A stretch of 64,000 nucleotides of DNA from Henricia sp. BOLD:AAB3569 (taxonomy: Eukaryota > Echinodermata > Asteroidea > Spinulosida > Echinasteridae). The notes below the pieces were generated by a model that saw only the letters and a program-made list of their open reading frames with translations, was not told the DNA's origin and searched no databases. Made by a program: the position numbers and the translations under genes. Below, in pieces: positions 13,439 to 63,112 of the stretch. The stretch is taken from NCBI GenBank assembly GCA_037783545.1, contig JBBELK010000093.1:124001-188000 (forward strand). Direction: 5' to 3'. Within the stretch, counting starts at the first letter, position 1. Every line of letters starts with the position of its first letter.

Positions 13439-13439
13439 G

Positions 13440-14800
13440 CGCGTGGTTGCTATTGCATGCCCGATCGTGATTGGTCAACTTGTACCACGTGGGTTGGTTT
13501 TGGACGAGGCCGCTAACGGTAAAAATTAGTGGGTTCAAAATTCATAAACTTCCATTTGCCGCCTTTTTCTCGTGCGAACTTCTGATGATATTTTTACTTT
13601 ATTTGTCTCTTTATGGTCATACAAAGTTCACATACTCTACTTCTCGTGGAACGACGATGAAAGATTGCGCTTTCACCGCGAGGCCTAGTTTGTTTACGCG
13701 TTGCTGTGCATACACAACTGTCATATGTCATGGCCGCCACCAAAATGCGCAAGTACACTATAGATGAAAACAAAAATGACGATTGTGGTTAAAATTGTCC
13801 GCAAAGAGCGCTGTGCTAAAGTCGTTGATGACTTTGAAGTATTAATCTGTGCTGACAATCACTTCAATTTCATATAGGTTTTCTTGGCCGACTTCGCATT
13901 TTTGCCTCGCAATGAAAGCGTCCATCCGTTTCACGCGTTTACCCACTGATGGACTGAACACACATTTTCGTTTTCCTAAAACAAGTATTCATATTTTTGG
14001 TTACTTTGCGTTCGAATGTATTTGTTGGACAAGCATGCAGTTATTCTAAAAGATAATAGATCCTAAAAACAAACCGTAAGCTTCAAATTTGTCCGTTTTT
14101 TAGCATTTTAAAAAAAATCAAGGTCACGTGATTATTTGAACCAGATTTCTGGTTTGGATAAATCACATGGCCTTAATTGTGAGTTATAGTTTTATTTCCA
14201 GCCGTAGAAACCAGCGCGAAGTGCGAGTTGCTTCTGTCATAACAATCGCGGCTGGTTTTACTTCTTGTTGGTAAATAATGTCCTATACGAACACTGTACA
14301 TACTGTATTTTCCAATTTGTAGACAAGCCTGCAAACACTGAGGTTTCATAAGAAGGGTTTCTGGGTGTTCAATGGACGACAGAATCTCTTAGATTTTCGT
14401 GTCTTTGTGGCGATAACAAAATAATACCCGAATAAAAAACAGCACTATTGCGGACGTTGAAGAAACTAACTAGTTGCGTTCGAGTTGCTTCCTTAAGTCA
14501 GCGCTGACCTTGGGAGGATCATGGAAGGTGTGATGAGTCAGGAAAAACAAGGAAACGTGGTAAACACGTGTCGACTCGTATCGAACGCCACCTTTATTTA
14601 CGAACACATGATACATAATACAGCGCAGAGCGGCTGGTAAAGCGTATAGGCCTATAGTCCAATGATTTTACCTCTTTTGTTAATTTGAAACATTTCTACG
14701 TGAACTTTTGATGATTTTTTTTACAACTACCATTGTCAATGATGCTAGATCGCTACATGTGTTCCTTACGATTTGTTAAATGTTCGGCATTGTACTATAG
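13440..14800. other. Non-coding stretch between CXC ORF and transposon
   Basis: No supported gene. Short ORFs (13471, 13849) have no recognisable features. GC-rich stretches around 13.4-13.7 kb could be the promoter side of the - strand CXC ORF. Confidence 0.45.
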
Positions 14801-18181: not shown

Positions 18182-19228
18182 ATGGATGGAGTGGTGAGAT
18201 GTACGCTTATTCTCGCCTCACTCTGCACACTTCTGCCGACACTTAACGCACAACGGACCGGCCAACTTTCAGCCTATCAGATTGCAGCATTCCAAAACCC
18301 AGATCCAGATTCCAACTCTAAGCTTAATCATGTTATTTTAAAAAATTCCAACATATACATCGGAGCTGTAAACTCACTCTACCGGCTGAATGACCAGTTA
18401 CAGGTTCAGGCAAACGTCAGTACGGAGGACGATTGTACACGTGATAAAGATCAGTGTCTCAACTATAACAAAGTTCTCTTCGTGGATCCCACCAGAAATA
18501 CACTGATCACCTGTGGGAGTGAAAGTGGAGGGACTTGTCAGCAGAGACACCTGGAGGAACTGACGATAACCTCAAGGAGTGAGGTTAAGGTGTCTCCAGG
18601 CAGAGACAAAACCACTGTCAGTCTACTGGCTCGTGGTCCTGCAAATAGGGACTGGCTTTACGTAGCAACCACATTTAGTATTTCGGGCACATCAGTTGCA
18701 CCAATTGCAAGACGAGATCTAGAATCACCTGCTTATGCAGGCAGGTACATTACTTTCAGTGATGCTTACTTCGGTGATGCATTTGACATCAACTATGTAT
18801 ACGGCTTTACTTCAAATGGCTTCACATATTTCATCACTGCACAGCAAAGGGAGCAGTCTACACGCACAGTATTTGTCTCCAAAGTTGTTCGTGTTTGCCA
18901 GACCAGCGATAATTTAGATTCATACACAGAAATCACCCTGCAGTGTGGTAACGGACCCAACCTGTACAACCTAGCTCAAGATGCGTACTTTGGAACAGCG
19001 GGACCAGCCTTAGCAGAATCACTAGGGATTGATACAGGAGCTCCGATGCTGTTTGCAGTCTTTGCCAAGAATGTTGGTTCCACCAGTGATCCTAGCGATA
19101 GCTCAGCTCTCTGTGCATTTAGGATGGATGAGATTGAGAATGCATTTGAGACAGCTGTGAGGAGCTGCGTTTATGAGGGATCTGCTTATCAGGTACCTTA
19201 TCTGCGAGGTAGCAAATGCAGTGAAATT
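18182..19228 (+). CDS. Receptor exon 1 (coding): signal peptide and most of the Sema domain
   Basis: The exon starts at 18179 after a CAG acceptor and the first ATG is 3 nt in. Residues 1-349. The hydrophobic leader ends near ALA-like LNA/QRTG at 23/24. Sema features include the Cys-rich stretch [17 protein letters not shown] and CGSESGGTC. The donor is ATT/GTAAGT, phase 0. A single very large Sema exon is common in plexin and MET genes. Confidence 0.92.
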
Positions 19229-22200: not shown

Positions 22201-25200
22201 TGGCGAATTGGGTATGCTACGATTTTCGGAACATAGGACCATGCGTGTGTTGTTGGCATGCTGCAACGCATTATGCAAGCTAGAGGTGTTTCCAGACAGA
22301 CAGCAGGCAAGGTAAGAGATTCAGTGATGCAAACATCGTGGATCAGAGCAGATGGGGATCCCAGCGTTACGGTGTGGGTGTGCATCGTAAGGCACATGCA
22401 CGGACAAACTGGTGTTTGTTGCAGATAATCGCAATGTATTACGGACGAGATTTTAAAGGTCCGTTCATTCGATTCCCTTTGTTTGAATAGTGGCGTGCCA
22501 TCCCACAAGGATCTTTACAGCGGCTAGTGCCTATAGTGGTCACCATGTGATGTCGCATCCTAGTTTGCTTTGCAGCCAAAGATAACATAAACTTTACATT
22601 TGTTTATTGTGGAATTTGAGGATCTAACTGTTTTCTTTTTGCAGTCCCTAGATCATATAACATTGCTGTGCAACACAGCAAGTGCATGTACATGTGTACA
22701 TAAATTGCTAAAAATTCCATTTAGTTGACACCCTTGACATGAATTTCATTAAACTACATAGGCCTATACTGGTATTTCTGAATAGTACCGGTATTGACTC
22801 ATGAAATTTGTGAATCTAAAAATAGGGTAAAAACGTCTCGGATGTAACATGTACTGTCTCTCGGGTTAATAGAATTGCTGTACAAGGTTAAGTGAAGTAT
22901 TTTTTTATGTACATGTAATTGCTGAACTTGAGGATCCAATTTGCTTCCCTTTTGCAGCTCCCTGCAGATGTAGATTACAGAGCATTGCTGTGCGACACGA
23001 GCAGTATATACCAGTATGCCAGAGGCAGTGACTCTGATGGAGTTCCAGCAATGCCATTGCTTCAGCTGGAAGGAACTCGCATGTCATCAATAGTGACCAG
23101 CATTGAGATGAATCACACAGTCGCTTTCATTGGCACATCACAGGGTGCATTGCTGAAGGTGAGTTTTGTATCGAAAATTTCCATTTGTAACCGATTAACA
23201 CGTAACCTTCTCATGTATTTTTGTTTCTCGTTCAGATTGAAAACGGATTTTGGTAAATTTATACATGTATAGCTTATTTAATTATAAGATATACTTTCCA
23301 CTTTTGTCGCAAATGTTGCTTTCTGTAGAAAAATCACATTTTCTCCTTAAAAAATTGCATGCAGTTAGTGCACAAGATAACCATTCACGCATGTACGCAG
23401 CGCCCTCTGCCGTCACGCTTACGCACGGACCGCTCGCGCCTTAATTTTGTGCATTACTAATTTATGCAGTAATTTTATCATATATTTATCTCAGAAATGC
23501 AACATTTCCGAGTATATCTTATAATTCAATAAGCTATCGATTCCAATATATAAATTTAACAAAATCAGCGTTCAATCTGAACGAAAAAATACACATTCCC
23601 AATGTGCCTTTTATATTTATTCCTGCATGAGGTAATTTTAAGCATGACCAAAATAATTGTGTCTATTGCATTAAACTAAGGTTCACATTGAGGATGGTGC
23701 AGCTGCCAGACATTACGAGACTGTTCAGCTAGCTAAACCCAGCCCAGTACTAACGGATATCAGCCTCAACGAACAGATGCAGCATATAAACATACTCACA
23801 GAACAACAGGTAATTTCCTTCATATAACTGTTGGCCGAAGAGTTTAAGAGTAAATTTCACCTTACAGTTTTTTCCCAATCGCTTACACACGGTGTGCGTA
23901 TAGCAATATTTCGAAGCGCTATAAACCCAACACGCGTCGAGAAAAAATGTACACGAGCCTCTAAACTAAAAACAGTGTAAACAAAACAAAACAAACCAAA
24001 ACAACATTGGATTCAAAATTTAAAACACATGGTCCAAAAGCACACTGTTTGGCCAAATGTTCCCATGCACTTCCCCAATGAACAAACACTAGTGGCAATA
24101 TGCCTACAACAAGAGAGGAAATGCTAACGCACAAAACTCAATGATGTATTTTCGAGAATGTGCTTCTTTCCATTTCTGTAGTCACTATCGTGCAACAAGC
24201 ACAATTCTTATTTAGAGAATCAAACAGCTAAATCTTTCTATTCAATGAAAGAATAGAACAGTTATGTCGTAATTCTTCTGTATCTTGACATGCCAGTTAA
24301 TACGGGAAATCGATTACAAGTCTCAAGCGACAGTCTCAAGTAGCGGATATACACTGCTAAGTAATGACAAAGTTCTGAGCCTGAATGGTAGTCTTTTAAA
24401 AACCCACGACATTACATAACAAATAATTTGTTTTTTTTAAACAATTGTACAACGGTCGATAACAATGGTGATTTGAAGCTGATTGAGATGTGTATACAAA
24501 TTGTCATTGTTTAGAAAAAAACAACTTCACAAGTGAAAGGCATTCCATCCAGTTCACATTCTTTCCGATTTGAGTTCTGGCGTTTGTTTTCCTGAATAAA
24601 ATTTGTATCAATTAGGGTGACAGGTCTTTTGAAAGGAAAAAAGTCCCTTTTAGTTTCTTCCTCTTTACCTTTCTTTTCTGGATGTCCTTCAGATCCTGTA
24701 AGGCTGTAAGTAATATTTTGTTTTCGCTCGTAATAACTGATCGACTTCGTGTGTTGTTGGCATTTATTTATGTGAGGTACGAACTATTTCAACTGGTACA
24801 AGCTTTCACTTTTTGAAAATACATGTAGTGTCATTTAATTTACAACATAAATGCACACAAAAGAGGTCTGTGTTAAGTATATAGGTTTAATGCAATCACG
24901 TGCTGCCCGAACAGGAGCTCCGTTAAAATTCTCTTTCTGTATGATGCGTACAGTTTTATACCCACCAGACGTACTGAAATTCCACTTTTTGTGACACACA
25001 TTAAGCGTTCTACAATCTTTGAAAACGGAAATGTCGTATACAGTGTGTCCAATTGTAATTTTGATGTGCAAATTATATCAGCGTAACGTTTGTTAACTTA
25101 AGAATATATTGCACTGACAAATGGCTATTCTGTTAGGAACAAATGTTGAACACAACATATGGTATGGTGCCTGATCATCATTGAAATGAAACAACCAAAC

Positions 25201-28200
25201 TTGGGATGAGAGAAAAATCGTAAGGGCCTTATCGGGATTCGAACCCGAGACCTCTGGCTCACTAGGTAGATGCTCTACCAGGCACATATGGTATATACTC
25301 CATCAGGTTTTCCCTATGGACCCAATTCTTCTCTCCGTGTTGCATGGTTAAATGTCTTTTTGTTGTTGTTAGTTTTTAAGATTGAGGGTAGAGAACTGTA
25401 ACCAGTACAAAAGCTGCAACTCTTGTATTGGTGAAGCTGGAGGACAAGATGTCGACCCGTACTGCGGATGGTGCACACTACAAAAGAGGTATTAAGACAA
25501 CATGCTGCACGTGGGCCTATACAACATCACGGCAATAGTATTTGACCTGTCACGACGAAATGAGCGTAAAGTCGAAATTTTCAAAAATTGGATATTGGTA
25601 TTTTTAAATTTAGCAGAAAAAGAGCTTTGCAATGGTATATAACACATAAGGTAAAACTATTCCCCTAACACAACACGCTAGGAGAAGTGGTAGTCTTCAA
25701 ACAAATCTTACAAATCTTAAAACAACATTTTCTACGGGTTACGAAGAAAGCTATCGTCAAAATTGGTCTGAAAATGATGTTTTTATTTGTTGGATGACGA
25801 TAAAATTGGAATCAAATAAAATTTGATTTCTAAACTCTAAAAAACCCTGAAATCGACATTCTTAAATTTTGGCTTTTAACACGTCGGTAAAGTAGGAAAC
25901 AGCGGAGTGCGACTTTACGCTCATTTCGTCGTGACCTGTCACACAACGTATGTTTTCATGTGCATTCCCATTCAATGATGTATAATGGGAAGGGGCCGGC
26001 AGTTCATAGCGATCCAACCTGATTATCTAGGAGGCGACGGATTTCGCACCAAACATGCTTAAAGTCAGGCAAAATACAAAATTGCGTTCAAACTCCAATC
26101 CCGCCGAACCAAATGTTGTGTCTATAAAAAAACAAAAATCTATGAACCTATTGTGGCGGGTTTCCCCGGGCCGAACCTCAGTCTGGGAGGATCAAGTCTG
26201 ACACCATATGTGGCGACGACAAATTCCCTTAAACTAAGATTCTTCCTCGGGCGAGAGTCTACTCTAAGCGACCTCAAGGCAAAAGGTGCTGGTCCGTTTT
26301 GGAGGAAATATACCGCCGGTTGGATATCGGTTGTCAGGCCCTATGACAAATCAAGACTCATAAAATAAAGCAAGGGAAGGACAAGGACTTTGTCAGCAAC
26401 TTATGACAGTTTTATTAATGTTCAACACGTTGGGTGGCTTAATTGTAGGTGTAAACAATTACTTAGTGAAATAAAGAAAAGGTGGTCTTATATAGGGCTT
26501 TCTTGTATTATGACTGACACTTTGTTTCTCAGGGCTTACTTCGGGCGACAGACACACAAGTAAGTAATACACTCTAGGGATCAATGAACCTTACAGTCAG
26601 TGTTGTGCAGCTGGTTCAATATAACGTAGCCGGTAAGTTACACGCACTCGCAGTAAGTCACACGGCAGCTCGGTAAGTTACACGCACTAGCAGTAAGTCA
26701 CACGGCAGCTCGGTAAGTTACACGGCAGCTCAGTAAGTTACACGCACTAGCAGTAAGTTACACAGCAGCTCAGTAAGTTACACAGCAGCTCGGTAAGTAA
26801 CACGCACTCGCAGTAAGTTACACAGCAGCTCGGTAAGTTATACGCACTAGCAGTAAGTTACACAGCAGCTCGGTAAGTTATGCACAGGCAACAATTAACA
26901 TTATTCCACAAGTCTGTGAATAACAGCTCTGTACGTGACGCACATGTACGAGCTTAAGTTATGCACGACTCCACAGCATGTAGCAATGCCCGATGTGTAA
27001 GTAATGCACGCTCACTAGTAAGTACTGCACATTGAGTAAGTAAGGCACGTTGATTAAGTACTGCACGTAGGGTAAGTAATACACATTTACCAGTACGTTG
27101 TCTCGCTCAAAATGGCGAACTTCTTGAGCTGACCTACAGCTCGACACAACGTACCTTGCAGCACACGCCACCTTTAGCCTAAATCGGTACTTCTACCGCA
27201 GTCCGCGTGCCCTTACTCAGTTAATTTAGCACCGTGAACTAGTCAAAGAATGTGGAGCGCCCGGGTTCCAAACTTGGACACTATTCCGCGCCGAACTCGA
27301 AAAGGCATAAGCATCAAACGCTATTAGGAACGACACACGTCCCACCGCAGCGCTGCCTATTACGCCTGCAGACACACTGTCAATAAATAAACCAATTGCT
27401 GCTGCACAACTTACCGACGAACGGTTCGTTACTTTTGCCGGTACACACTCGAACAACTCGTCCGTCTTCGAAGCTCTCTAGAATCGCTCTCTCTGCCCGC
27501 TGGCAGTCACATGCGCGCCCACGGTTACATGCACAGGCGACAGTCGGTGACCTCCCCTGCGCGCGCAACCTAATTATGCACAAATACCATCATCCCTATG
27601 TTTACTATAATATACTGTTTCGCTACACTATTATACATAAGTTAACTCTATACCGATTCGTTGCTTTTTGCCATACAGGTGTACCAGACACAGTGAGTGT
27701 CCGTTGGCTTCTGTGTCCAGTCGCTGGTTACCATACAATGCTGCTCGGTGTGTGGGTATCAGCCAGACAGACCCAAAGAACTTGGCAATAACAGATCCAT
27801 CCCAAATGGTAACGTGCATCGTTTTGACTTGATGACGCGTCAATCAAAGAATTACACCGTAGTCTCCCAGTTTTTATAAAAAAGTAACATAAAAAAAGGG
27901 CAGATTTTTGTGACCTTCCTATTACATAAATCAGCAGTCTTCGGATATAATATTCTATACACGTATAATGCGGTCACTTTCACCAATTTTAACGTATTTT
28001 ATTTCTATCGGAATAAATTCCACAAACGTAACCATCGTCACCGTAATATAAAATACGATGACCTAGTCCCGCTCTACCGATGTTGTTGGTAAAGATCAAA
28101 ACGACTGCCTCTATATGTGTATAAAGACACTTTGAGTACAGTGATCTATTTTCAATCATTTACCAACAGATCACACTGACAGTAGACCAGCTTCCGAACC

Positions 28201-46200: not shown

Positions 46201-49200
46201 AGAACATCAGCGGAATTGTTTACTTTTAAGGAAAACCCATCTGTACTGGACGTACAACCTCGTAAAAGTTATCAAAGGTAAGCGGCCCCAGGTGCAGATC
46301 AATGTTGTTAAATATAGTACTGCAAAATCAGCTGGTGATTAGATTTATTGCAAGTGCTTCATGAGAAGAGGCTTCTTGGTAGGCTCTACTTCTGTTCAGA
46401 CAAATGCCTCGAGACCCAAAGCTTGCCCGACTGTCATGTACCTCTTTCGTGAAAAGCAAATACCATGCGGCCAAACTCACGGTACATTTAGTTGTGACTA
46501 AATTCTAGTTTTAATGTATCATTCTGTCATAGTGGCGGAAGGACACTGAGGGTCAACGGTACTGGTTTTGCATTTGTGCAAGTAGCAAGAATCTTTGTTG
46601 GAAATGGCCAAGAGGCATTTTATGGAGTGGTAAGCAGTTATTTTGCTAGTCTCACTGACACGCATATTTTTTTCTCGCGTCTCATTCATAGACTGGTAGC
46701 AATCAGCCTTCTACTTATGTTTTGGTTGTACACCATGTGGAATTTCCTGTGGAATTATAAGGCCACCACTGAAATATGAACAACAATTGTCCCGCCCAAA
46801 TTTGATCGTGTATTTACGGAATGGCGGTACTTTTGCCGCATAGTTACATATAAATGTACTGCAAAGTCGGCCCACCTTTCACGCTGTGCACTGCAGCCAT
46901 GGATTTTCGCCTCGCGCGCGTATGGCAATGTCAATGTTTTAGAATGTTGCCAAAGCTTAACTTGACGTTTACCACCAGCTATTTTCTTTTGGTAACAGGC
47001 ATGTAGTATGGTAAGCGATTGGTTTATGGAGTGTAGGTCTCCTGCAGTGAACGAGACACACACATTCACTCTCGGCTTCGTTATGGACGACTTTGCGTTT
47101 TCCATCGGTGAATTCAGTTATTGGCGGGATCCAGACTTCAACAAGTTTGGTGATGGCCAGTTTGAAATTAGTAAATCCGGGAAGAATTTACAAATCACAG
47201 TAAGTATGATCCTTTTATAGCTCCATGGTGTGATGCACCGTACGTATACCCTCAAAGAATATGGGTCATTCTATAAATTTGGGGTCCAACATGTGACATT
47301 TTTCTGTCCCCGTTACACCTGACATACTGCTTTTTGCCATACAAGTATCATTAAAAATGCCTTCAAATTTGTTTATGAATTGTACTTTATGTAATCACTC
47401 TTTGAGATAGAAGGCATTTAAAGAATGTGTCCTAAATTTACAAACTACAACATTTTACAAGATGTCAGATGTAACTGGGACAGACAAATTTGACCCCAAA
47501 TTTATAGAATGATCTATATACGCTACCAAAAGAGCGATCCACGTCTCTCATACAGTCCAAGTATATTACTATCTGTCAAAGTATCAGCCAACCGTTGTAG
47601 ATAGATTCAATAATAGTACCTAACCGGGTAGCAACTCTGCCTTGCATGCTCAGAAGATGGCAACGCGCTAGCTTTTCACACTGCAGAGCCTGTACGGCCG
47701 AGTGTTGCTGCCTGATTGTCGTGATTTGGAGTTGTGCCTCCTTTTGATAGATTTTCAGGTTAACGGTAAAAATTAAGTTTCCGTCTCTTTTTGGGGTCTG
47801 TGACAGGGTGAGTGGCTCAATGAAGCATTGGAGGAAACAGAGTTATACGTGAAGGTTGGCAGCGAGTATTGTACGATTAACATCTTTCATAGCACGCTTA
47901 TTAGTTGTGTGCTTCCAGAGAATGAACCACCTGGCTTGGATGCAGACGGCAACCCCGATACGAGCATACGACCATTAGCTGTTGTAAGATTATTCCCTCT
48001 TTAATTTATTGACATTCTTTTGATATACGCTCCTGAACCATCCCAACTTAATATGCTTTTTGCACACTGCAGGGATCAACCCAGATTAATAATAGAAATG
48101 TAATTCTTAATTAAAAGTCACAGGCAAACAATTGGGATTTCCCCAGTTAATTTAACTCTAAGTATTTTCAGATAAGTAAATTGAGGCGACTGTTTTCCCT
48201 GTCGTTGCAGGTTCACTGGTATACCGACCAAACGTTTACCGCCGGAGAGGTGATTTATCCCAGCAACATTTTGACTATCCTCCTAGCAACCGTCTTTCTA
48301 ACAGTTGGGGTACCCTTGCTGGCTCTTATAGTGGTCCTCACTTTCAAGTACAATAAGCAGAAGCAACTTCTGAGGACATACAACGAGCGCCTCTTAGCTC
48401 TGATACGACATCTTCATGAAGGTATAGTACGATGCCAAATTTTTTTCACAGGACTAACTGTTCACTTTTAACACGTAATGCGAAATATTCCAAGATCCAT
48501 TCCGTTATAAATATATTATAATTTGCGATGATGAGTTTTACAGGAGCGAACGCTCGGAAGCCTTCACTGTTCGGGTGTGTCGCTATATGGATGCACTTTA
48601 ATCTCCGGCGTGTTTGTTTCTTATAGAACAACAAGCTCCTGCAGGAAGGAGACGGCGATCGTTTGGCAGTACAGATGAACAACGTCCACCGGTCATTCCT
48701 GTGAAGACTGTTGCTTTGAATGCCAATATAAGCATTGTGCCAGGCGACCTGCAGATCAAATTCAGTCAGCTGGACATGGGGAAAGTCCTTGGGCGGGGTG
48801 CGTATCACTTGTTTCTTGTTATTGTTTAGCCCTCCGTCGTATCGTACAGTTAAGCCTATAATATAACTTGGAGTCACTAAACTCTTCCGTGTTTCTTCTC
48901 TATATACATGTAGAACAAGGGAGAGAACAATAGAGCCATGAGCGTTTTTGCACGTGGTGCTATTTTTTTCTCTCAACAGACATTTGTTAGATTTGTTGCA
49001 TTTGAAATTGTTGCATTTGAAATTTTTTTTTACAGCTATTCGTTTCTGTTTCTGTTTGTTTTAGTTTCTGTTTCTGTTTCTGTTTCATTCAATAAACCCA
49101 GGTGCTTTTGGGATAGTTTACCAGGCAACTATGAACGCGGCGTCATCTGGATCTGAGCGTCAAGTGGCCGTCAAGACAATACAAGGTTCTATATAGTAAA

Positions 49201-52200
49201 GTTCTAGAAGTGTACTCTCTTTATATCTTTCTTTAAAAAGCCATGCAGAGGATGGAAAGGGATCTTTGATCCATGTCTTAAATGTTTAGCTATATATTTA
49301 TGACTGATTACATCTTTGTACGTAAACAAAATGGAATGTATTATTTGTTGATTTCAGACGCAAGTGATTCACGCAACGTCATAAAATTTCTCGAGGAAGG
49401 GTTAATGATGAAAAACTTTGATCATCCCAATGTACTCGGACTGTTCGGTCTGACCTTTGACCCCAACGGTCAGCCCCTGATTGTTCTTCCCTTCATGGCA
49501 AACGGTGATCTCAAGTCCTATATAGTGAAACGAAAACAGGTAAATAATGAGCTTGTGGAGTTTGCGACTTATTTCGTTTTAAAATTACTTTACTTGAAGA
49601 GATGAGTAAATTCAACTGAAATTTGCATTATTATTTATCCTTTCCCTTTTGTTGGGTAATACAATTTTTACATTTACTTGCAATATAAACACATTAAATA
49701 CAGTTACTCTCACATAATAGGTCGTGGCTTTCTGATTTAGGATAATGCAGTTTTATGTAACTGATGTTCTTGCAAATATTGACATTTTCCTTCACTGTAG
49801 AATCCGAGAGTGCGACAGCTTGTGACGTTTGCCCTGCACATAGCTCGCGGGATGAAGTACCTTTCTGAGCGGAAATTCGTCCACAGGGATTTAGCAGCAA
49901 GAAACTGCATGTAAGGACTGTTATCTTCACACAAAATTTGTCCAATAAAAACAATATTAAAGACTCGCTGGATTGGTTAGTTTGTTTCGCGCGACAGAAA
50001 ACTGTACAGTAGCCCTAAAAAAGCTAAATTCGCCAAAACTTGTTATTCAAGAAACAATAACGGTTGTCGCAGATCACATTTATCGGTTTTCTCCCATTGA
50101 ATACAAGGATCGATGATAAAGAGACAGCCAAAATAGCGGATTTTGGATTATCTCGGGATCTGGATGAGTCGGATTATTACACAAGTGGAGACAAGCAGGC
50201 CAAACTGCCAGTGAAGTGGATGGCACCGGAGTCAATGGAACGAAAGGTGTATAACATGAAAACAGACGTGGTGAGTTAAAGTACAAAGTTAGAACTCTCA
50301 AATGAAGCGAGACGTGCCTAGCCTTATCCAAGGCTATTAAATTGTGTGAATCCGTGAAGAATTTGCCTGTATGCTATGCAGCGAAAGTGCGCCACAACGC
50401 GGTGAATTGTAGCCAACTGCTAAATAGTCTGGTTACCGTAATATCTTGGTCTGCATCCTGACTTCACGGACGAGGCTGTTGTTGTTGTTGTTGTATATTT
50501 TATGGCATCTTCGGCAACTAAGGCCCTTTATGCCATCAACTGGGGTACCGTGGCCGAGCGGTCTAGGTAATTGACTCGCAATCATAGGTGAAAACTTGGG
50601 GTTGCAGGTTTGAACCTTCCCACGGCTACGGTACCTGTACCCTTGGGCAAGGCACTCAACCACACTTGCTCCATCCTTCGGAAGGGATGTAAAGCCGTTG
50701 GTCCAGTGTGTTAGGTAATGGAAACGCACTCTAAAGATCCCAGAGCATTCTTTCGTGAAGAGCAAGGGGGATCATCCCCGGTGTCTCTGGCCATTTCTAA
50801 TTCTAATTCTTCATGGGTTTCCTCACGCTTGCGAGTGACAGTGCAATGAGCACTATTGAGGAATCCTTGGTATGAATACCAGAAAGAAATAATAATAATA
50901 ACTATACGGTTTTAGCTTTCTCTATACTATATTATCAACTTGAAATGACGAAGAAGGAGTTGCAGTTTTAGAAGTGGGAGGAAAACCCCCAGAGAAATGC
51001 CCCAGCGGAAAACCCACGCGGTCAAGTAGGGACTGCAAACCCAATCCACATACACGCCCCGGATTCGAACCCGGGACCCCTAAGGTGAAAGGCGAGGAAA
51101 GAACCCGTACGCCAACCCGACCGCCCGACGAGGCTGGATCATAGCCTTGTTCTTTATGTGTTTTATGGGCGGGGACTCTTTATGCTATTTTTTTCAAAGA
51201 GAGCACCGAGACGTAAAAGCTCATTGGTATAACGGTTGTTTTGACAGAACAATACGGTGCTATTTGAAAAATAGCAGATTTTCCGTACGTAGCCTATACC
51301 CAGTTGGTAAGTTCACAAACACGTCATACCTTTACAGAAAATATGTGAGGGATATCTTCTGGTCTTCGTGAAAGTTTGCAATTTGTAGGCTGCATAATTC
51401 AAACTACCGTTGATTTCCTCAGTTGTAACACTACGTGTGATGTCCCCATAATTGCATTAGACCACCTGCAGACAGACCTACATTAGAGGGGCGGTCGGGT
51501 TGGCGTAGCGGTTCTTTCTGCTGGCCTGCCTGTGATGACCGCTTTCCAAAGGACTACCCTTGCACATAGGTAGTTTGGAGGAGTTTTCTCGCGGAAACCC
51601 GTGTGATGTCCTGGAACGTTGCTCAATGACGGAGTGACCAGTACGTACGTCACCGGGAACGCCGGTACAATTTTGGAACACGATTTGATCCCTGTCTGCG
51701 GTCTTGATGTTGGCTCGACCTGGACTGGTGATGATAGTGGATAATGACCTGGACTGGCAACGACAATGATGGAGGAACTGGTATCAACGGAATCGACATT
51801 GGACTGGACTTGACCTGGCTTGCGTGTTTTATTCGAACGAATAAAACATTTTATAAAAAGCCTGTGATGACCGCTTTCCGAAGGACTACCCTTGCACATA
51901 GGTAGTTTGGAGGAGTTGTTTTGCGGAATCCCGTGTGATGTCCTGGAACGTTGCTCAATGACGGAGTGACCAGTACGTACGTCACTGGGAATGCCGGTGG
52001 AATTTTGGAACATGATTGGATCCGTGTCTGCGGTCTTGATGTTGGCTCGACCTGGACTGGTGATGATAGTGGATAATGACCTGGACTGGTAACGACAATG
52101 ATGGAGGAACTGGTATAAACGGAATCAACATTGGACTGGACTTGACCTGGCTTGCGTGTTTTATTCGGACGAATAAAACATTTTATAAAAAGCCTTTCAC

Positions 52201-54829
52201 CTCTGGCGGCCCGGGTTCGAATCCGGGGCGTGTATGTGGATTGGGTTTGCAGTCCCTACTTGACCGCGTTGGTTTTCCCCTGGGGCATTTCTCTGGGGGT
52301 TTTCCTCCCACTTCTAAAACTGCAACTCCTTCTTTGTCATCTCAAGTTGATAATATAGTATAGTTAAAGCTAAAACCGTATAGTTGATGGCATAAAGGGC
52401 CTTAGTTGCCGAAGATGCCATAAAATAAACAACAACAACAACAACCTACATTAGTACATACTGTAAACTATATACACATGTACGACGTACAAACGTTTAT
52501 ACTTGCAAACCGGCACGTACGCACCATTTGATCCGAGTAGTGAGCTCTGATTGGATATTATGTAAGATATGAATATTTATAAGCACTCGGGTTTCGCATA
52601 GGTAATTGCGTCGGATTTCCAACGCAGTTATAAAGAAACACATAAGAAATCGAGTACATAAAGAACAAGGCTATGATCCAGCCTCGTCCGTGAAGTCAGG
52701 ATTCAGACCAAGATATTATGGTAACCAGACTATTTGGCAGTTGGCTACAATTCACCGCGTGGTGGCGCACTTTCGCTGCATAGCATACATATGCATAGCA
52801 TACAGGCAAACACAATTTCACGGATTCACACAATTTCATAGCCTTGGACAAGGCTACACGTGCCTTGAACTTGTGTATACTATCCCTAAAAAGGAACTAA
52901 AGTGATTCCCACAGCAATGAAATGTGACATTTCCTGTTTATGGGAGAATGTTGTGGTTAAAGGGCTCTCTGCAGAAAACCCATTTTGTTCGGCTTTCAAC
53001 CTGATTGAACCTGCGTGGGTAGTTGACTACTGCGTGGGTTAAACTGACCTCTGGAGCCACGCTTTCCAACGGCCCTCGATCGGGGTGCACGAGCCCAGTC
53101 AGAGAGGTACATCAGGTATACACCCTTTGGCACTTATGGTGGAATTGCCTCAGCGAAATTTTAGGAAGGCTTGTGCAAGTTAGTCTTGCCACGAAAGGTC
53201 ATTACTAACAACATTTTGAAGAAACATTTGAGTAACATGTTATTCTACTTTTCGACCGTTTTATCGAATCTTGCATCACTTTTCGTGGCACTAAAAATCG
53301 CCCAATCTGCATGGGGCTGAATCATCCTTAACCCCTTGCGGATGGGTTTATCTTGCTGGAAATTGGTCCAACAGTCACACGGTGTTCTGTTACACATGTA
53401 GGTAAGTTCAACTGCCAGGCTGCGGCTATGTTGCCGTCATCTGATATGGTGCCAAGGAGTTAAGAAAAATGATAATACACAGTGTGGGGTGAAAGAAAAA
53501 TCAAATGGCTCTCATTGGATTTCGAACCCAAAACCTCTGATAAGATGCACTGTGGCGTACTCCCTCAGGTTTTCCTGTATAATATCCTGGGTTTCAACCA
53601 ACACTGTCACCAGGAGGAACGACACTTTTTTGTTTAGGACAGTTCCCGCCGACGCAACTGATTATATTGTCACACTCAAAACAGTTACATGCATTCTGTT
53701 CTCTGGGTGTTGCATGGAGGCTCACTATGGAGGAAGAATGTTTCACAATATTCCCCTGCTGAATAAAATTGCCAATTTATGAGAAATATTTTCAATTTCT
53801 CCAGTGGTCGTACGGTGTTCTCCTGTGGGAGCTGTTTTCCGGAGGTCGCCAGCCATATCCAGGGGTTCGTAACAGGGACGTGTACAATTTTCTCCAGCAA
53901 GGGAGACGCATGGATCCGCCAAGATTATCTCCACCGAAACTGTACGTAAAGAATAGGCTACCTGTACACATTACATGTTGTGCTTCGTTCTGTTAAAAGT
54001 AGCAACGAGGACGTACATGTACCGGAAAAAGATATTCAGTACCAGTACGTTAAAATTTGCAAGGCTGTCATTAAACACTGCGACCAAACTCGACCCTGCA
54101 GTCCTCTCAGTCGCTATTAAACACCGCTTCAAGAAAGTAAAATAAATTGGTAGCTTATGTGCGAATATCCGTCATTTGTTACGAATACAAAAATTTGTTC
54201 CCGAATCACCCCGACAATTTTCAGGGCTTTCCAAACTTTTACGATCTTGCACAGAGCGAACTGAATCATCCCAAGGCAGCCAAAAACTATTCCCCGATTT
54301 ACTGAAGAATTGCTGTTTTCGCGGCGATTAGGCTTAAATTCGGGAATGGGTGAAAAATAAATGCCTGTATCTGCCAGGAATCTCCTGACAGTCGGATTAG
54401 GGACACCAATACTGTCGCACGTGCATTTTTGAATGAAAATTATAATAAACCTTGTAGCATAAGATGTCTTATTTTTCGATATTTTTGTTCAGATCTGAAA
54501 TCATGCAGCAGAGCTGGAAGGATTCGCCAAAGATACGATGCTCTTTCGGAGAGATAGTTGACGAGCTTGACCGTCTGGTCGCTGTGTTGGATGATGACTC
54601 GTCTCCAGGAGGGGGTTGGAACGCATCGAGTGAGGTTGACAGCCCAGCATCGATCTCTGGAGCCGCTTACTGCAACGAGCCTAGCTATCTCCAGCCAACT
54701 GTGGAATGTGCAACCAAGGGCGGCAGCCACCACATTCCAATGGAAGTCATCGGATGGGGTCAAGAAAAGGATGAAACAGTGGATGTTGATGAGCGACAGA
54801 AAATAGCCCAGTCTTATTTTTCTAACTGA
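18182..54829 (+). CDS. Receptor tyrosine kinase with plexin-type ectodomain and MET/RON-like kinase (27 coding exons)
   Basis: Seen: 27 exons with GT donors and AG acceptors and compatible phases sum to 4959 nt, giving 1652 residues plus stop. Layout: signal peptide 1-23; Sema about 24-458; PSI1 about 467-506; TIG1 about 542-620; PSI2 about 626-650; TIG2 about 685-771; PSI3 about 775-832; IPT repeats about 833-1188; membrane helix about 1208-1233; basic juxtamembrane segment; kinase about 1305-1575; tail to 1652. Kinase residues are present: glycine loop LGRGAFG, K1340 in VAVK, E1357 of helix C, HRDLAARN with D1434, DFG at 1452-1454, and Y1464/Y1465. Family knowledge: plexins have three PSI domains and no kinase; MET/RON have Sema, one PSI, four IPT and a kinase. 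Inference: a ligand-gated cell-surface kinase (HGF- or semaphorin-like ligand) on the MET lineage that keeps the full plexin ectodomain. The start ATG has a strong context (GCCATGG) just after an acceptor, so a non-coding 5' exon lies upstream. Exons are listed separately below. Confidence 0.93.
19507..19708 (+). pseudogene. Decayed duplicate of the 3' end of receptor exon 1
   Basis: This stretch is clearly similar to 19013-19180 in the same order and strand: both share the [10 protein letters not shown]-coding start, the SALCAF-coding middle and the following 30-40 bases. It has a stop after [10 protein letters not shown] and several indels. After a TTAA-flanked MITE (19713-20201), 20205-20233 also resembles the start of intron 1 (19247-19273), so the duplication included the exon-intron border. 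Confidence 0.75.
19713..20201. mobile_element. TTAA-target MITE, copy 2
   Basis: TIRs AGGGCCCCTGAAATG / CATTTCAGGGCCCT with TTAA on both sides (19709-19712, 20202-20205). It lies in intron 1 of the receptor and interrupts the decayed exon-1 duplicate. Confidence 0.78.
20602..21399. mobile_element. Element with about 190-bp terminal inverted repeats
   Basis: 20602-20793 is the reverse complement (with substitutions) of about 21209-21399; ends TATAGGATTTCC / GGAAATCCTATA. The interior (20806-20930) contains a 'TTACCCAAC' type repeat also seen at 3690-3800. No transposase. Confidence 0.7.
21400..22613. other. Intron 1 sequence without recognised features
   Basis: Short ORFs only; no repeat or gene recognised. 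Confidence 0.4.
22614..22690 (+). pseudogene. Decayed duplicate of the receptor exon 2 acceptor region
   Basis: About 75 bases match 22926-23002: the 'ttgaggatc' leader, a TTTTTGCAG acceptor and the first exon bases through 'attgctgtgc'. The coding frame is broken by TAG soon after the acceptor. It sits 300 bp upstream of the true exon 2. Confidence 0.65.
22958..23158 (+). CDS. Receptor exon 2: Sema domain continued
   Basis: Residues 350-416. The acceptor follows a TTTTGCAG tract and the donor is AAG/GTGAGT; phase 0 on both sides, 67 codons. It carries [12 protein letters not shown] and the late Sema strand [13 protein letters not shown], which matches the last propeller blades of plexin and MET Sema domains. 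Confidence 0.9.
23217..23592. mobile_element. Foldback MITE in intron 2
   Basis: About 80 bp at 23217-23296 is the reverse complement of 23513-23592 with a few mismatches ('cgttcagattgaa' / 'ttcaatctgaacg'). The spacer is non-coding. Target duplication not resolved. Confidence 0.65.
23681..23809 (+). CDS. Receptor exon 3: end of Sema domain
   Basis: Residues 417-459, phase 0 on both sides, donor CAG/GTAATT. The acceptor (AAACTAAG) has almost no pyrimidine tract, so it may be weak. The text [18 protein letters not shown] and [15 protein letters not shown] fits the end of the propeller just before the PSI domain. Confidence 0.86.
23810..25150. other. Intron 3, no recognised features
   Basis: AT-rich, no ORF or repeat I recognise before the SINE at 25166. 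Confidence 0.4.
25155..25294 (-). repeat. Short tRNA-derived SINE
   Basis: On the - strand, TGGTAGAGCATC (A-box-like) and GGTTCGAATCCCG (B-box) lie at tRNA spacing, but acceptor-stem halves do not pair, so it is not a tRNA gene. ACATATGGTAT occurs on both sides (25155-25165, 25284-25294) as a possible target duplication, though similarity to a relative at about 53494-53590 seems to continue past it. Confidence 0.6.
25373..25488 (+). CDS. Receptor exon 4: first PSI domain, first half
   Basis: Residues 460-498, phase 0 in, phase 2 out. It reads [15 protein letters not shown] then [12 protein letters not shown], the hallmark plexin PSI pattern C..Y.SC..C....DP.CGWC. The donor GAG/GTATTA joins to exon 5 to give KRC, as in plexins. 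Confidence 0.9.
25552..25932. mobile_element. MITE with 8-bp target duplication (hAT-like)
   Basis: 23-bp perfect TIRs beginning ACGACGAAATGAGCG, flanked on both sides by GACCTGTC (25544-25551 and 25933-25940). 8-bp duplications are typical of hAT-group elements. 381 bp, non-coding, in intron 4. Confidence 0.82.
26630..27085. repeat. Minisatellite of GTAAGT-containing units
   Basis: About 20-22 bp units, alternating CAGCTCGGTAAGTTACAC and GCACTAGCAGTAAGTTACAC types from 26630 to 26885, then looser copies to 27085 (GTAAGTAATGCACG). I count about 17 GTAAGT words on the sense strand. Located in intron 4 of the receptor. Confidence 0.85.
27086..27678. other. Rest of intron 4
   Basis: No gene recognised; moderately GC-rich 27200-27560, with only shadow ORFs. 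Confidence 0.4.
27679..27808 (+). CDS. Receptor exon 5: end of PSI1 and linker
   Basis: Residues 498-541. It starts with CTRHSECP, the last PSI cysteines in plexin spacing, and ends with [10 protein letters not shown]. Acceptor TACAG, donor ATG/GTAACG. This acceptor is the first real one after an array of splice-donor-like repeats. Confidence 0.88.
28170..28326 (+). CDS. Receptor exon 6: plexin-type TIG1, first half
   Basis: Residues 542-594, phase 0 in, phase 1 out, donor [29 protein letters not shown] and CQFDD followed by IQCRTPD fit the plexin TIG segment (ItltV..Lp......Y.C.F) between PSI1 and PSI2. Vertebrate MET and RON lack this PSI-TIG-PSI arrangement. Confidence 0.86.
28484..28583 (+). 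CDS. Receptor exon 7: TIG1 second half, leads into PSI2
   Basis: Residues 594-627. [19 protein letters not shown] and [15 protein letters not shown] match the plexin block (H..vrL...ss...f....F.FYdCs.h.sC) that runs into the second PSI. Acceptor TTCGCAG, donor CTC/GTAAGT, phase 1 in, phase 2 out. Confidence 0.88.
29244..29905. mobile_element. Non-autonomous element with 9-bp target duplication, copy 1
   Basis: Starts TAGTCTGGTACCC and ends GGGAACCAGTCTA (imperfect short TIRs). Flanked by CAGCAGCTG on both sides (29235-29243, 29906-29914). A second copy at 61657-62259 has the same ends. 9-bp duplications suggest a Mutator-like group. Confidence 0.82.
30042..30640. mobile_element. PIF/Harbinger-like GC-rich MITE
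   Basis: TIRs TGCCTAGGTCACATTTGC / GCAAATGTGACCTAGGCA with TAA at both borders (30039-30041 and 30641-30643), matching the 3-bp TWA target of Harbinger elements. The interior is dense in 'gccgtag' and 'cggccgcc' words on both strands. Confidence 0.75.
31315..31670. repeat. Dispersed repeat, copy 1
   Basis: Similar along its length to 54870-55195: shared blocks include 'gcgatttctgaaacgctcat', 'gtgaccccgtgacgc' and 'gtttacacgcaaaaa'. Non-coding. Confidence 0.65.
31765..31879 (+). CDS. Receptor exon 8: second PSI domain
   Basis: Residues 627-665. [20 protein letters not shown] then CTH is the typical plexin PSI2 core (C..C....w.C.WC....C.h). I place the donor at AAT/GTAATT because it restores phase 0 and links to exon 9 in frame; reading through it gives unrelated sequence. 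Confidence 0.88.
32308..32442 (+). CDS. Receptor exon 9: PSI2 end and start of TIG2
   Basis: Residues 666-710, 45 codons, phase 0 both sides. It contains [11 protein letters not shown] and [19 protein letters not shown], the plexin TIG2 entry (CP.......iPvgvp..i.v...nL). Acceptor TTGCAG, donor CAG/GTAAAA. Confidence 0.87.
32795..32884 (+). CDS. Receptor exon 10: TIG2 middle
   Basis: Residues 711-740, 30 codons, phase 0. [18 protein letters not shown] and VIQCDSRM match plexin TIG2 (y.C.l...g....v.A......i.C). Acceptor AAGCAG, donor ATG/GTACGT. Confidence 0.86.
33027..33120 (+). CDS. Receptor exon 11: TIG2 end
   Basis: Residues 741-772, phase 0 in and 1 out. [20 protein letters not shown] then RQLDD fits the plexin strand y.y......l.VvWn....id that precedes PSI3. 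Donor ATAG/GTAAGT. Confidence 0.86.
33648..33829 (+). CDS. Receptor exon 12: third PSI domain
   Basis: Residues 772-832. [18 protein letters not shown] then [10 protein letters not shown] and DPCPAPHLE give the plexin PSI3 spacing (Y.C......C..C.......C.WC...C...C...........Cp.P). A third PSI is diagnostic of plexin-type ectodomains. Acceptor TTTCAG, donor ACG/GTAAGG. Confidence 0.9.
34133..34287 (+). CDS. Receptor exon 13: first IPT of the C-terminal block
   Basis: Residues 833-884. [20 protein letters not shown] then IG is the IPT signature (P..GP..GgT.itI.G.nlg), with [10 protein letters not shown] as the later strand. Donor AAAG/GTATTT, phase 2. The following intron is 10.7 kb and holds a retroelement. 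Confidence 0.9.
34310..34385 (-). repeat. Split direct repeat B2
   Basis: 76 bp, matches 34654-34729 with about one difference; outer edge reads TAATCTATTTGCACAACC on the + strand. Confidence 0.8.
34591..34653 (-). repeat. Split direct repeat A2
   Basis: 63 bp, identical to 44504-44566. Contains the inner palindrome GCGTAGATTCCTACGC. Directly abuts B1. Confidence 0.82.
34654..34729 (-). repeat. Split direct repeat B1
   Basis: 76 bp copy of B2; its junction with A2 forms CAAATAG-TAAT-CTATTTG, a short palindrome that may be the recombination core. Confidence 0.8.
34977..35345 (-). pseudogene. Tyrosine recombinase, C-terminal catalytic part
   Basis: The frame contains [13 protein letters not shown] (the H..R motif) then [13 protein letters not shown] with the nucleophile-type Tyr, as in C-termini of DIRS/Ngaro recombinases. 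The upstream frame closes at a stop near 35345, and the first catalytic Arg is not found, so the gene is incomplete here. Confidence 0.7.
35932..36094. mobile_element. Hairpin MITE family member inside the retroelement
   Basis: It has the same terminal inverted repeats (GCAGCCGATTTCACGAA) as the hairpins in the left array, but a longer and diverged centre rich in 'gcgcaa' words. It shows the family is mobile and not just part of the array unit. Confidence 0.72.
36228..36572 (-). pseudogene. Unassigned ORF of the retroelement
   Basis: A 114-codon frame directly after the SGNH domain (ends meet at 36572/36573). No family recognised; may be the N-terminal side of the recombinase protein. Confidence 0.35.
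36573..37052 (-). pseudogene. SGNH/GDSL-hydrolase-like domain of the retroelement
   Basis: [16 protein letters not shown] resembles the GDS block and [11 protein letters not shown] the later G-ND block of SGNH hydrolases; the region is open for 159 codons. Hydrolase-like domains have been reported in some Ngaro-type elements (from memory). The catalytic Asp-His pair is not obvious. Confidence 0.6.
36881..37422 (-). pseudogene. RNase H domain of the retroelement
   Basis: 37422-37177 reads [16 protein letters not shown] then [20 protein letters not shown], like DIRS-type RNase H (EAL...l....VD...v..aW.g...rs). 37153-36881 adds [12 protein letters not shown], a block that follows RNase H in Ngaro polyproteins. 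Frames are shifted between parts. Confidence 0.55.
37815..38785 (-). pseudogene. Reverse transcriptase of the retroelement, broken
   Basis: 38529-38284 has [20 protein letters not shown] then FSGFEWVWF, a DIRS-type RT palm segment; a poly-A insertion (38338-38350) breaks it. 38177-37815 has [20 protein letters not shown], like the later RT block before RNase H. The active-site double Asp is not recovered in the visible frames. Confidence 0.62.
39255..40135. repeat. Hairpin minisatellite, dense part
   Basis: Seventeen units sharing CAGAGGCCCGTCCTCTG, spaced 63-77 bp for the first three and then alternating about 46 and 49 bp. The core is a 6-bp stem with a 5-nt loop. Two unit types differ in the spacer (TTGCACCATAAACATAG and TTTGTACCTTAAACATAG). 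The - strand short ORFs through it ([12 protein letters not shown]) change frame between units and are not genes. Confidence 0.9.
40650..43290. repeat. Hairpin minisatellite, scattered decayed copies
   Basis: At least fourteen degenerate cores at irregular distances (for example 40668, 40728, 41227, 41382, 41540, 41600, 41709, 41766, 41926, 43037, 43274). 42170-42540 also has three CTGGAGAGGACA words. Confidence 0.7.
43300..44500. other. Retroelement leader without recognised features
   Basis: No ORF resembling gag or another protein is visible on the - strand. The stretch carries only short frames. Confidence 0.4.
44504..44566 (-). repeat. Split direct repeat A1 (5' end of the retroelement)
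   Basis: 63 bp identical to A2 at 34591-34653; flanking sequences differ on both sides. Confidence 0.82.
45030..45156 (+). CDS. Receptor exon 14: end of IPT A
   Basis: Residues 884-926. [20 protein letters not shown] then VSFTYT matches the closing IPT strands (i.C.T.p.......v.V......f.Y). The phase-2 junction with exon 13 across 10.7 kb gives an intact codon, which supports skipping the retroelement in the mRNA. Confidence 0.88.
45483..45711 (+). repeat. tRNA-derived SINE, diverged
   Basis: Starts GGGGCGGTCCGGTTGGCGTAG (A-box-like) and contains GGTTCGAATCC (B-box), then the family body 'gtatgtggatta-gtttgcagtccctacttgac' and a (CAA)n-like tail. It lies in intron 14, same strand as the gene. 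Confidence 0.7.
45797..45942 (+). CDS. Receptor exon 15: IPT B
   Basis: Residues 927-975. [20 protein letters not shown] then [10 protein letters not shown] is a clear IPT start, followed by [14 protein letters not shown]. Acceptor CTCCAG, donor GCAG/GTGAGT, phase 2. Confidence 0.9.
46113..46277 (+). CDS. Receptor exon 16: end of IPT B, start of IPT C
   Basis: Residues 975-1030. [14 protein letters not shown] closes one [23 protein letters not shown] opens the next. Acceptor ATACAG, donor AAAG/GTAAGC, phase 2 both sides. Confidence 0.88.
46533..46629 (+). CDS. Receptor exon 17: IPT C
   Basis: Residues 1030-1062. [20 protein letters not shown] then IFVGNG is the IPT core (GG..l.v.G.gf..v..p.i.v). 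Acceptor CATAG, donor GTG/GTAAGC. Confidence 0.87.
46999..47199 (+). CDS. Receptor exon 18: end of IPT C, start of IPT D
   Basis: Residues 1063-1129, 67 codons. [11 protein letters not shown] closes [12 protein letters not shown] is the strand typical of plexin and MET (lgF.mDd), and [20 protein letters not shown] starts the last IPT. Acceptor AACAG, donor ACA/GTAAGT. Confidence 0.9.
47807..47983 (+). CDS. Receptor exon 19: IPT D
   Basis: Residues 1130-1188. [20 protein letters not shown] then YCTI and LISCVLPE match the membrane-proximal IPT of MET and plexins (i.G..l.......v.vG...C......t.i.C..p). Acceptor GACAG, donor GTT/GTAAGA. Confidence 0.88.
48211..48421 (+). CDS. Receptor exon 20: transmembrane helix
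   Basis: Residues 1189-1259. A 26-residue hydrophobic stretch (about 1208-1233, [20 protein letters not shown] onwards) is followed by a basic stop-transfer KYNKQKQ and a helical juxtamembrane [19 protein letters not shown], reminiscent of the plexin juxtamembrane helix. Acceptor TTGCAG, donor GAAG/GTATAG. Confidence 0.9.
48627..48797 (+). CDS. Receptor exon 21: juxtamembrane segment and start of kinase
   Basis: Residues 1259-1316. It carries a tetra-arginine run (GRRRRS), then [15 protein letters not shown], the first half of the glycine loop. The exon breaks in the middle of the loop glycine codon. No Tyr equivalent to the MET CBL-binding site is evident in this segment. Confidence 0.9.
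49102..49185 (+). CDS. Receptor exon 22: glycine loop and catalytic lysine
   Basis: Residues 1316-1344. [11 protein letters not shown] then [10 protein letters not shown] gives the rest of the P-loop and the VAVK lysine (K1340). Acceptor CCCAG, donor CAAG/GTTCTA, a weaker donor than its neighbours. Confidence 0.9.
49358..49539 (+). CDS. Receptor exon 23: kinase N-lobe
   Basis: Residues 1344-1404. [20 protein letters not shown] and [17 protein letters not shown] correspond closely to the MET/RON helix C to hinge region (FL.EG..MK.F.HPNVL.L.G, L.VLP.M..GDL...I). E1357 is the likely salt-bridge Glu. Confidence 0.92.
49801..49910 (+). CDS. Receptor exon 24: catalytic loop
   Basis: Residues 1405-1441. 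[20 protein letters not shown] carries the catalytic HRD (D1434) and N1439 in the form typical of receptor tyrosine kinases. Donor CAT/GTAAGG splits the Met codon, as in the alignment with MET (ARNCM). Confidence 0.94.
50108..50270 (+). CDS. Receptor exon 25: DFG, twin-tyrosine activation loop
   Basis: Residues 1441-1495. [20 protein letters not shown] then [15 protein letters not shown] motif, twin Tyr 1464/1465 in the same place as the MET autophosphorylation pair, and the P+1 loop PVKWMA. Acceptor ACAAG, donor GACGTG/GTGAGT. Confidence 0.93.
50477..51127 (-). repeat. tRNA-derived SINE carrying a second SINE
   Basis: On the - strand it runs from the GGGCGGTCGGGTTGGCGTA-like head (near 51127) to a (CAA)n tail (50477), flanked by GACGAGGCT at 50467-50476 and 51127-51136. 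It is interrupted at 50542-50899. Confidence 0.72.
50542..50899 (+). repeat. Second SINE family, nested
   Basis: 358 bp starting GGGGTACCGTGGCCGAGCGG (Leu/Ser-tRNA-like A-box), with GCAGGTTTGAACC as B-box, a 'gggcaaggcactcaacc' body and an (AAT)n tail. AACT is duplicated at 50538-50541 and 50900-50903; the uninterrupted host sequence has it once. Confidence 0.75.
51487..52444 (+). repeat. tRNA-derived SINE split by a 664-bp insertion
   Basis: Flanked by CCTACATTAG at 51477-51486 and 52445-52454. The head (A-box part) is 51487-51518 and the rest (B-box, body and (CAA)n tail) is 52193-52444. Confidence 0.75.
51529..52192. repeat. Two tandem copies of a 332-bp repeat inside a SINE
   Basis: 51529-51860 and 51861-52192 are near-identical and end with 'ttcgaacgaataaaacat' / 'ttataaaaag'. 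They sit exactly between the A- and B-box parts of the SINE. A related fragment is at 4900-4985. Confidence 0.78.
53494..53600 (-). repeat. SINE fragment
   Basis: Reverse complement carries 'ggttttgggttcgaa' and resembles the SINE at 25155-25294; diverged. Confidence 0.45.
53805..53941 (+). CDS. Receptor exon 26: kinase C-lobe
   Basis: Residues 1496-1541. [20 protein letters not shown] then [13 protein letters not shown] is standard for the MET family. Donor choice: CT/GTACGT (53942) preserves frame and length with exon 27; the nearby TAC/GTAAAG has better consensus but would need an acceptor that loses four residues. Confidence 0.9.
54493..54829 (+). CDS. Receptor exon 27: last kinase helices, C-tail and stop
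   Basis: Residues 1541-1652. [20 protein letters not shown] is subdomain XI; the usual RPSF reads RCSF here. The tail is acidic and Ser-rich and has YCNE (Y1600, YxN pattern bound by GRB2) and YLQP (Y1606, YxxQ pattern bound by STAT3), suggesting a compact docking site as in MET. The frame ends QSYFSN then TGA. The 3' UTR begins at 54830; I cannot place the poly(A) site. Confidence 0.9.
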
Positions 54830-62948: not shown

Positions 62949-63032
62949 GGTTAGCGCTGGCCCAGAGAAGTCATTCGTATCTCTGCTTTCGACGAGATCA
63001 CATCGACGTGTACGACAACATAATATACAAGA

Positions 63033-63065
63033 ATGCCTAGAGTCAGAGCTTCCAAGAAGTCCACA

Positions 63066-63112
<47 letters not shown>

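Follow-up and report, generated by a model that had tools for sequence, protein, structure and literature searches.

The window, by which we mean the whole 64,000-nucleotide stretch of Henricia DNA analysed here (C93:124001-188000, within the 740.7 Mb assembly that we searched), contains a gene of 27 exons on the plus strand (18182-54829), whose 26 introns are all GT-AG in a homology-anchored splice search. The coding sequence of 4962 bases is in phase, has a single stop at its terminus and specifies 1653 residues, with hand-set ends for exons 1 and 14 (the anchored search's own optimum was 1635 residues) and the homology anchors partly picked with the help of plexin sequences. This bears out the preliminary description of the locus, which had joined 27 exons in phase into 1652 residues. 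Two unguided gene models, one of 20 exons and 1217 amino acids and the other of 28 exons and 1485 amino acids (both including the stop), were wrong and shared the same spurious exon ending at 30033. We additionally dropped a frame at 24273-24430 as the last Sema exon because it is broken in two copies of the gene by a 2-base difference, and exon 3 at 23681-23809 took its place.

Exon 1 (18182-19228) carries the start codon, the signal peptide and most of the Sema propeller, for which plexins are the best PDB matches, while exon 2 (22958-23158) continues the Sema domain and exon 3 (23681-23809), whose frame is preserved in the copies where aligned, ends it. PSI1, with the motif CGWC, occupies exon 4 (25373-25488) and ends in exon 5 (27679-27808), where TIG1 starts and from which it extends through exons 6 (28170-28326; Pfam TIG_plexin) and 7 (28484-28583). 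PSI2 follows in exon 8 (31765-31879; Pfam PSI_PlexinA-B, CDWC), TIG2 in exons 9 (32308-32442; Pfam TIG_2, plexin), 10 (32792-32884) and 11 (33027-33120), and PSI3 in exon 12 (33648-33829; CRWC, under the Pfam cut-off). TIG3 is divided between exons 13 (34133-34287) and 14 (45030-45156) and TIG4 between exons 15 (45797-45942) and 16 (46113-46277), with TIG5 in exon 17 (46533-46629), TIG5/6 in exon 18 (46999-47199) and TIG6 in exon 19 (47807-47983). The membrane helix (approximately residues 1209-1233) and the start of the juxtamembrane region are encoded by exon 20 (48211-48421), and the rest of the juxtamembrane region and the start of the kinase P-loop by exon 21 (48627-48797). The remaining P-loop and the lysine motif AVK lie in exon 22 (49102-49185), alpha-C and the hinge in exon 23 (49358-49539), the catalytic loop HRDLAARN in exon 24 (49801-49910), DFG, the twin tyrosines 1465-1466 and APE in exon 25 (50108-50270), the C lobe in exon 26 (53805-53941), and the kinase end, the C tail with Y1601-C-N and Y1607-L-Q-P, and the stop in exon 27 (54493-54829).

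Intron 13 holds a 10 kb insert (34310-44565) that is missing from three copies of the gene and contains a 47-base minisatellite of approximately 14 copies (39455-40139) as well as minus-strand open reading frames. One of these, at 34980-35351, had no Pfam match and has what we take to be a resemblance to a tyrosine recombinase. Elsewhere in the window, a minus-strand frame at 15823-16746 with HTH_32 and DDE_3 matches, both under their cut-offs, is probably a Tc1/mariner-like transposase remnant, and a short minus-strand frame at 13031-13474 gave a weak Tesmin/TSO1 CXC match (17.3 bits, under the cut-off). An open plus-strand frame at the window end (63024-63998), in which a MADF DNA-binding domain scored 34.7 bits, could belong to a neighbouring gene or encode a transposon protein.

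A plexin-type ectodomain and a MET-like kinase

The predicted protein reads, in order, signal peptide, Sema, PSI-TIG-PSI-TIG-PSI-TIG, additional TIGs, a single membrane helix and a tyrosine kinase. Pfam matched Sema, PSI1, TIG_plexin, PSI_PlexinA-B (PSI2), TIG_2 and TIG repeats; PSI3, in which the CxWC is present, scored 24.6 bits and so fell short of the cut-off of 27. The three PSI domains and plexin-type TIG segments of the preliminary description are therefore upheld by plexin-specific Pfam models and three CxWC motifs, weakly so for PSI3. Its other structural claim, a full tyrosine kinase with MET-like twin tyrosines and no plexin GAP domain, was likewise confirmed by motifs and Pfam: the kinase scored 298-301 bits as PK_Tyr, the catalytic residues are intact (AVK 1339-1341, HRDLAARN 1433, DFG 1453) alongside the twin tyrosines, and Pfam found no plexin GAP (PF08337) in the window protein. 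Among the 33 genome matches reported for the GAP domain, none lies on contig C93.

Comparison with PDB chains gave different best matches for the ectodomain and the kinase. The Sema region matched fly plexin A at 152 bits and MET at 86 at best, for a query that included a piece of the rejected 24273-24430 frame and no exon 3, with matches almost wholly upstream of that piece. The segment from PSI1 to TIG6 matched plexins A2, A4 and A1 at 259-270 bits (A2, 270), compared to 108 for MET. The window protein shares with plexins A and B the full ectodomain order, the plexin-specific PSI and TIG models and these best matches, and differs in having a kinase where they have the GAP domain. In contrast, the kinase ranked MET first (274.6 bits), followed by RON (260), MER (231), AXL (225) and INSR (224), once the top row, a chain with two EGFR kinases at 162 bits each, had been set aside. 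A kinase tree of nine rows joined the window kinase to MET and RON, although with support of only 56/57, and groupings with MER (p-AU 0.126) or with INSR (0.118) were not rejected. The grouping with MET and RON on which the preliminary description had staked its reading was recovered, but not to the exclusion of these two alternatives.

The window kinase domain is 48% identical to that of human MET and 45% to that of human RON. Both likewise have twin activation-loop tyrosines and an ectodomain of the Sema-PSI-IPT type, in which one PSI stands against the three CxWC PSI domains of the window protein. MET has a furin-type site, a DYR (Cbl) motif and a YVHV/YVNV tail pair. The window ectodomain contains no furin-type RX[KR]R, the sole match in the protein being cytoplasmic, at 1267; its cytoplasmic part contains no DYR motif; and a ten-residue sequence in its tail differs from the MET pair. 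We take tail tyrosine 1601 (YxN) to be of the Grb2 form, and the intron positions of the MET kinase appear to match those of exons 22-27, a resemblance that plays no part in our argument. On the evidence of the gene model, the predicted product is a complete plexin-type ectodomain joined to a MET-like kinase.

This architecture is not new in kind. Receptors with Sema, three PSI domains, plexin TIGs and a MET-like kinase were named Met-LP in 2019, from an annelid, a mollusc and a starfish (Junqueira Alves et al., PMC6374515), and the window protein resembles them in its Sema domain, three PSI domains, plexin TIG/IPT series, membrane helix and MET-like kinase. In that paper, the starfish family is also expanded, and starfish Plexin-B1 adjoins Met-LP1 as a plexin/Met-LP neighbour pair; the published numbers are one each in the annelid and the mollusc and four in the starfish, against at least 12 kinase loci here. 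The same study infers two Met-LP origins by kinase acquisition from Sema+PSI trees (PMC6374515). It was the only source that a search of the open-licence literature for 'Met-LP' with plexin and kinase returned. We regard the structure and the assignment to Met-LP as close to certain.

The preliminary description had gone further, proposing that the window gene could be the MET orthologue, an ancestral intermediate from which vertebrates later lost PSI2 and PSI3. The kinase is indeed nearest to MET and RON by score, a plexin ectodomain is present, and among the 147 of 362 candidates scored in the genome, none was conspicuous as a separate canonical Met kinase. In that search, 12 matches to the human MET kinase query were limited to alpha-C and the hinge (query 34-105), all at Met-LP loci and with 45-54% identity, while the wider matches of other kinases spanning query 34-105 had 25-41%. 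Nevertheless, according to PMC6374515, Capitella, Aplysia and the starfish Acanthaster have both Met-LP and a single-PSI Met, and a single-PSI Met is present in lancelet. Since Met coexists with Met-LP in three phyla and occurs in lancelet, the single-PSI form predates vertebrates, and the later loss of PSI2 and PSI3 is not supported. The kinase genes also do not form one clade in Sema trees, and we consider it improbable that the window gene is the MET orthologue and preserves such an intermediate.

Copies of the gene on two contigs

We compared the window gene with copies on the same contig, whole at 35k and 273k by the position of their Sema exons, from exon 4 on at 352k, and truncated at 212k. 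Not only the exons but also the introns of the copies align to the window; DNA identity is for the most part 80-99%, dipping to 67-77% over short distances. Aligned splice dinucleotides were unchanged in all cases, at 48/48, 51/51 and 45/45 sites in three paralogues and 12/12 in the fourth copy, with 4, 1, 7 and 40 of the 52 sites, respectively, unaligned. In the 35k and 352k copies, coding length changes sum to multiples of three where aligned, and the twin tyrosines and tail tyrosines are retained in three copies. Kinase dN/dS was 0.14 against the 35k copy and 0.19 against the 352k copy; against the 273k copy it was 1.42, from changes too few to tell (dN 0.006, dS 0.004). The first two values point to purifying selection on the window kinase.

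Such selection on the kinase, together with the conservation of every aligned splice site in the paralogues, makes a join by chance unlikely. The corresponding error would be the merging of two adjacent genes, a tail-less plexin and a head-less kinase, as might be suspected from the 10.7 kb intron between exons 13 and 14 and from the adjoining plexin and Met-LP genes of starfish reported in PMC6374515. However, the phase is continuous, three copies without the 10 kb insert have the same exon order, and every aligned splice site is conserved, which makes such a merger very improbable.

Exon 1 has 12 close loci of at least 78% identity, on C93 and C311, which correspond to 14 of 23 match rows, one degraded copy accounting for three rows. 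Kinase exons follow downstream in order at nine of the 12, seven on C93 and two on C311, in both orientations; C93 and C311 may partly be two haplotypes of one cluster. The remaining exon-1 loci are the truncated copy at C93 212k, a degraded copy at C93 47k, and one at C311 634k that continues into GAP exons. Further, more distant kinase loci on C84, C861 and C93 601-626k bring the total to at least 12, the locus counts being lower bounds and the distant paralogues having been compared through exon matches. GAP exons were found on C84 (and C1480), C34, C861 (three sets) and C311; to judge from its nearly equal scores, C1480 seems to be a haplotig of the GAP region on C84. The truncated copy (C93:212001-228811) has frame changes in exons 5-6, and the degraded copy lies at C93:47622-48483. 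In addition, the Sema exon of the 273k copy contains a stop within a frame-shifted stretch, and the last-exon match of the 552k copy contains a TGA; given these defects and the frame changes at 212k, some array copies may be broken.

Window positions 46486-50478, covering exons 17-25, are 99.35% identical to C93:252074-256070 in the 273k copy, while exon 1 is 86% identical, and this tail tract suggests recent conversion or local duplication. Among ten array Semas, a set that includes the GAP-bearing and the truncated copy, dN was highest at alignment columns 151-190 (0.32, with dN/dS 0.84), and dN/dS was 0.68 in columns 176-215 and 0.20-0.31 in columns 1-90 and 226-290. The ratio climbs at the exon end, to 0.70 and then, in the last 20 columns only, to 1.15. 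In the patch the ratio, at 0.68-0.84, is not above 1, which falls short of demonstrating selection for diversity. The concentration of differences between array copies in one part of the Sema domain suggests that they may have different ligand specificities and one output.

Heads and tails that do not match

The minus-strand locus at C311:564000-635367 (C311 634k) has Met-LP-like head exons 1-14 followed by plexin-like exons 15-16 and GAP exons, with the joint at approximately 599.9k-601.3k. Compared with the window gene, its Sema is 84% identical, PSI1 85%, PSI3 85% and TIG3 94%; exons 2, 3 and 5-9 range from 71 to 87%, exons 10-11 are at 57-58% and exon 14 is at 76%. Identity drops to 44% in exon 15 and 45% in exon 16, the membrane and kinase exons of the window gene have no match there, and GAP exons then follow on the same strand. 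Identity before the joint (exons 1, 4, 12 and 13) was 404/473 as against approximately 51/114 after it (Fisher p = 3.7e-18), where the second fraction was back-calculated from percentages and rounded, the first omits the lower exons 10-11, and residues are not independent. If read as one gene, this locus would be a Met-LP reverted to a plexin, exon 14 being the last before the joint and exon 15 the first after it.

Two of the distant kinase loci display the converse arrangement. On C861 (237360-310345, plus strand), a kinase gene has a Sema and PSI1 like those of a GAP plexin located at 665k of this contig, together with a PSI3, TIG3 and kinase like those of the window gene. It shares 73% of Sema residues (240/330) and 88% of PSI1 (30/34) with that plexin and 48% of TIG3 (24/50); against the window gene it has 40% in Sema, 71% in PSI1, 79% in PSI3, 78% in TIG3, 81 and 92% in two kinase exons and 65% in the last exon. 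The C84 kinase gene (C84:419494-451670, plus strand), for which no PSI2 match was reported, is 31% identical to the window in Sema, 47% in PSI1, 81% in PSI3, 92% in TIG3, 76% in two kinase exons and 78% in the last exon. Its Sema joins the C34 GAP plexin with support of 94/91 in an 18-row Sema tree and 100/100 in a 7-row Sema+PSI1 tree.

On the 18-row tree, which came with a warning that long branches join at C84/C34 and within the C861 group, the kinase label requires four changes, at least three of them forced by starred branches; shuffled labels required 5.7 on average and as few as four in 53 of 500 shuffles. For Sema, a grouping of the array with the C861 kinase gene was rejected, as was one with the C84 kinase gene (p-AU 3.7e-11 and 3.6e-4), the groups having been named after the tree was seen and the GAP-bearing and truncated near-identical copies being kept with the array. 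Three earlier AU tests were confounded by the near-identical copies, GAP-bearing and truncated, that fall within the array. For the PSI3+TIG3 module, the Sema grouping was not rejected for C861 (p 0.448 and 0.295) and barely rejected for C84 (p 0.043). Because the PSI3+TIG3 tests are not decisive, the case for exchange rests on near-identical heads with different tails.

Could unequal rates alone, with slow kinase, PSI3 and TIG3 and a fast Sema, produce this conflict without exchange? The C861 result for PSI3+TIG3 is compatible with that explanation, as are the long branches flagged in both places on the Sema tree, and the TIG3 of the C861 665k plexin, on a long branch with 42-48% identity to the two rows compared, may be fast. 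However, the C861 kinase gene and its neighbouring plexin agree in Sema and PSI1 and yet differ in TIG3, and the C311 locus falls to its low in exons 15-16 and then enters GAP exons; near-identical heads with different tails require exchange at any rates, if the exons belong to one gene. We therefore consider unequal rates alone unlikely as the full explanation. With moderate confidence, we favour the reading that in this animal plexins and Met-LP kinases are one recombining family, whose genes have exchanged heads running from Sema to TIG and tails consisting of either GAP or kinase, on the assumption that neighbouring exons in order represent one gene and that contigs are correctly joined.

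No description of head-tail exchange was found in the parts of PMC6374515 used here, and a search of the open-licence literature on plexin gene conversion and domain shuffling showed no other report of it among the papers listed. What seems to be new is the presence of at least 12 kinase loci, including nine near-copies on two contigs, and heads and tails that appear not to travel together.

Proposed function and meaning for the receptor family

Taken together, the window gene very probably encodes a Met-LP-type single-pass receptor tyrosine kinase, one of the nine near-copies on C93 and C311. A ligand would pair two receptors, the plexin-like Sema head making a semaphorin the probable one, and the paired kinases would phosphorylate one another at tyrosines 1465-1466. 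Adaptors may then dock at tail tyrosines 1601 and 1607 and turn on Ras/MAPK-type signalling, where the same head joined to a plexin GAP would turn Rap off instead. For the ligand and signalling output in this form, we see the chances as about even.

On its own, the window gene adds one member to a known receptor class, and the cluster matters more. If the exchange is true, the same guidance-type head would be wired either to turning Rap off or to turning tyrosine-kinase signalling on, and the cluster would be a natural receptor series that combines one head with tails acting in opposite directions. Since modules appear to have been exchanged, trees built from Sema and PSI only may miscount kinase gains, and the two independent Met-LP kinase acquisitions proposed in 2019 from such trees would need retesting. 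The cluster also makes it testable whether MET-type receptors go back to several kinase captures or to a single one, with heads swapped afterwards.
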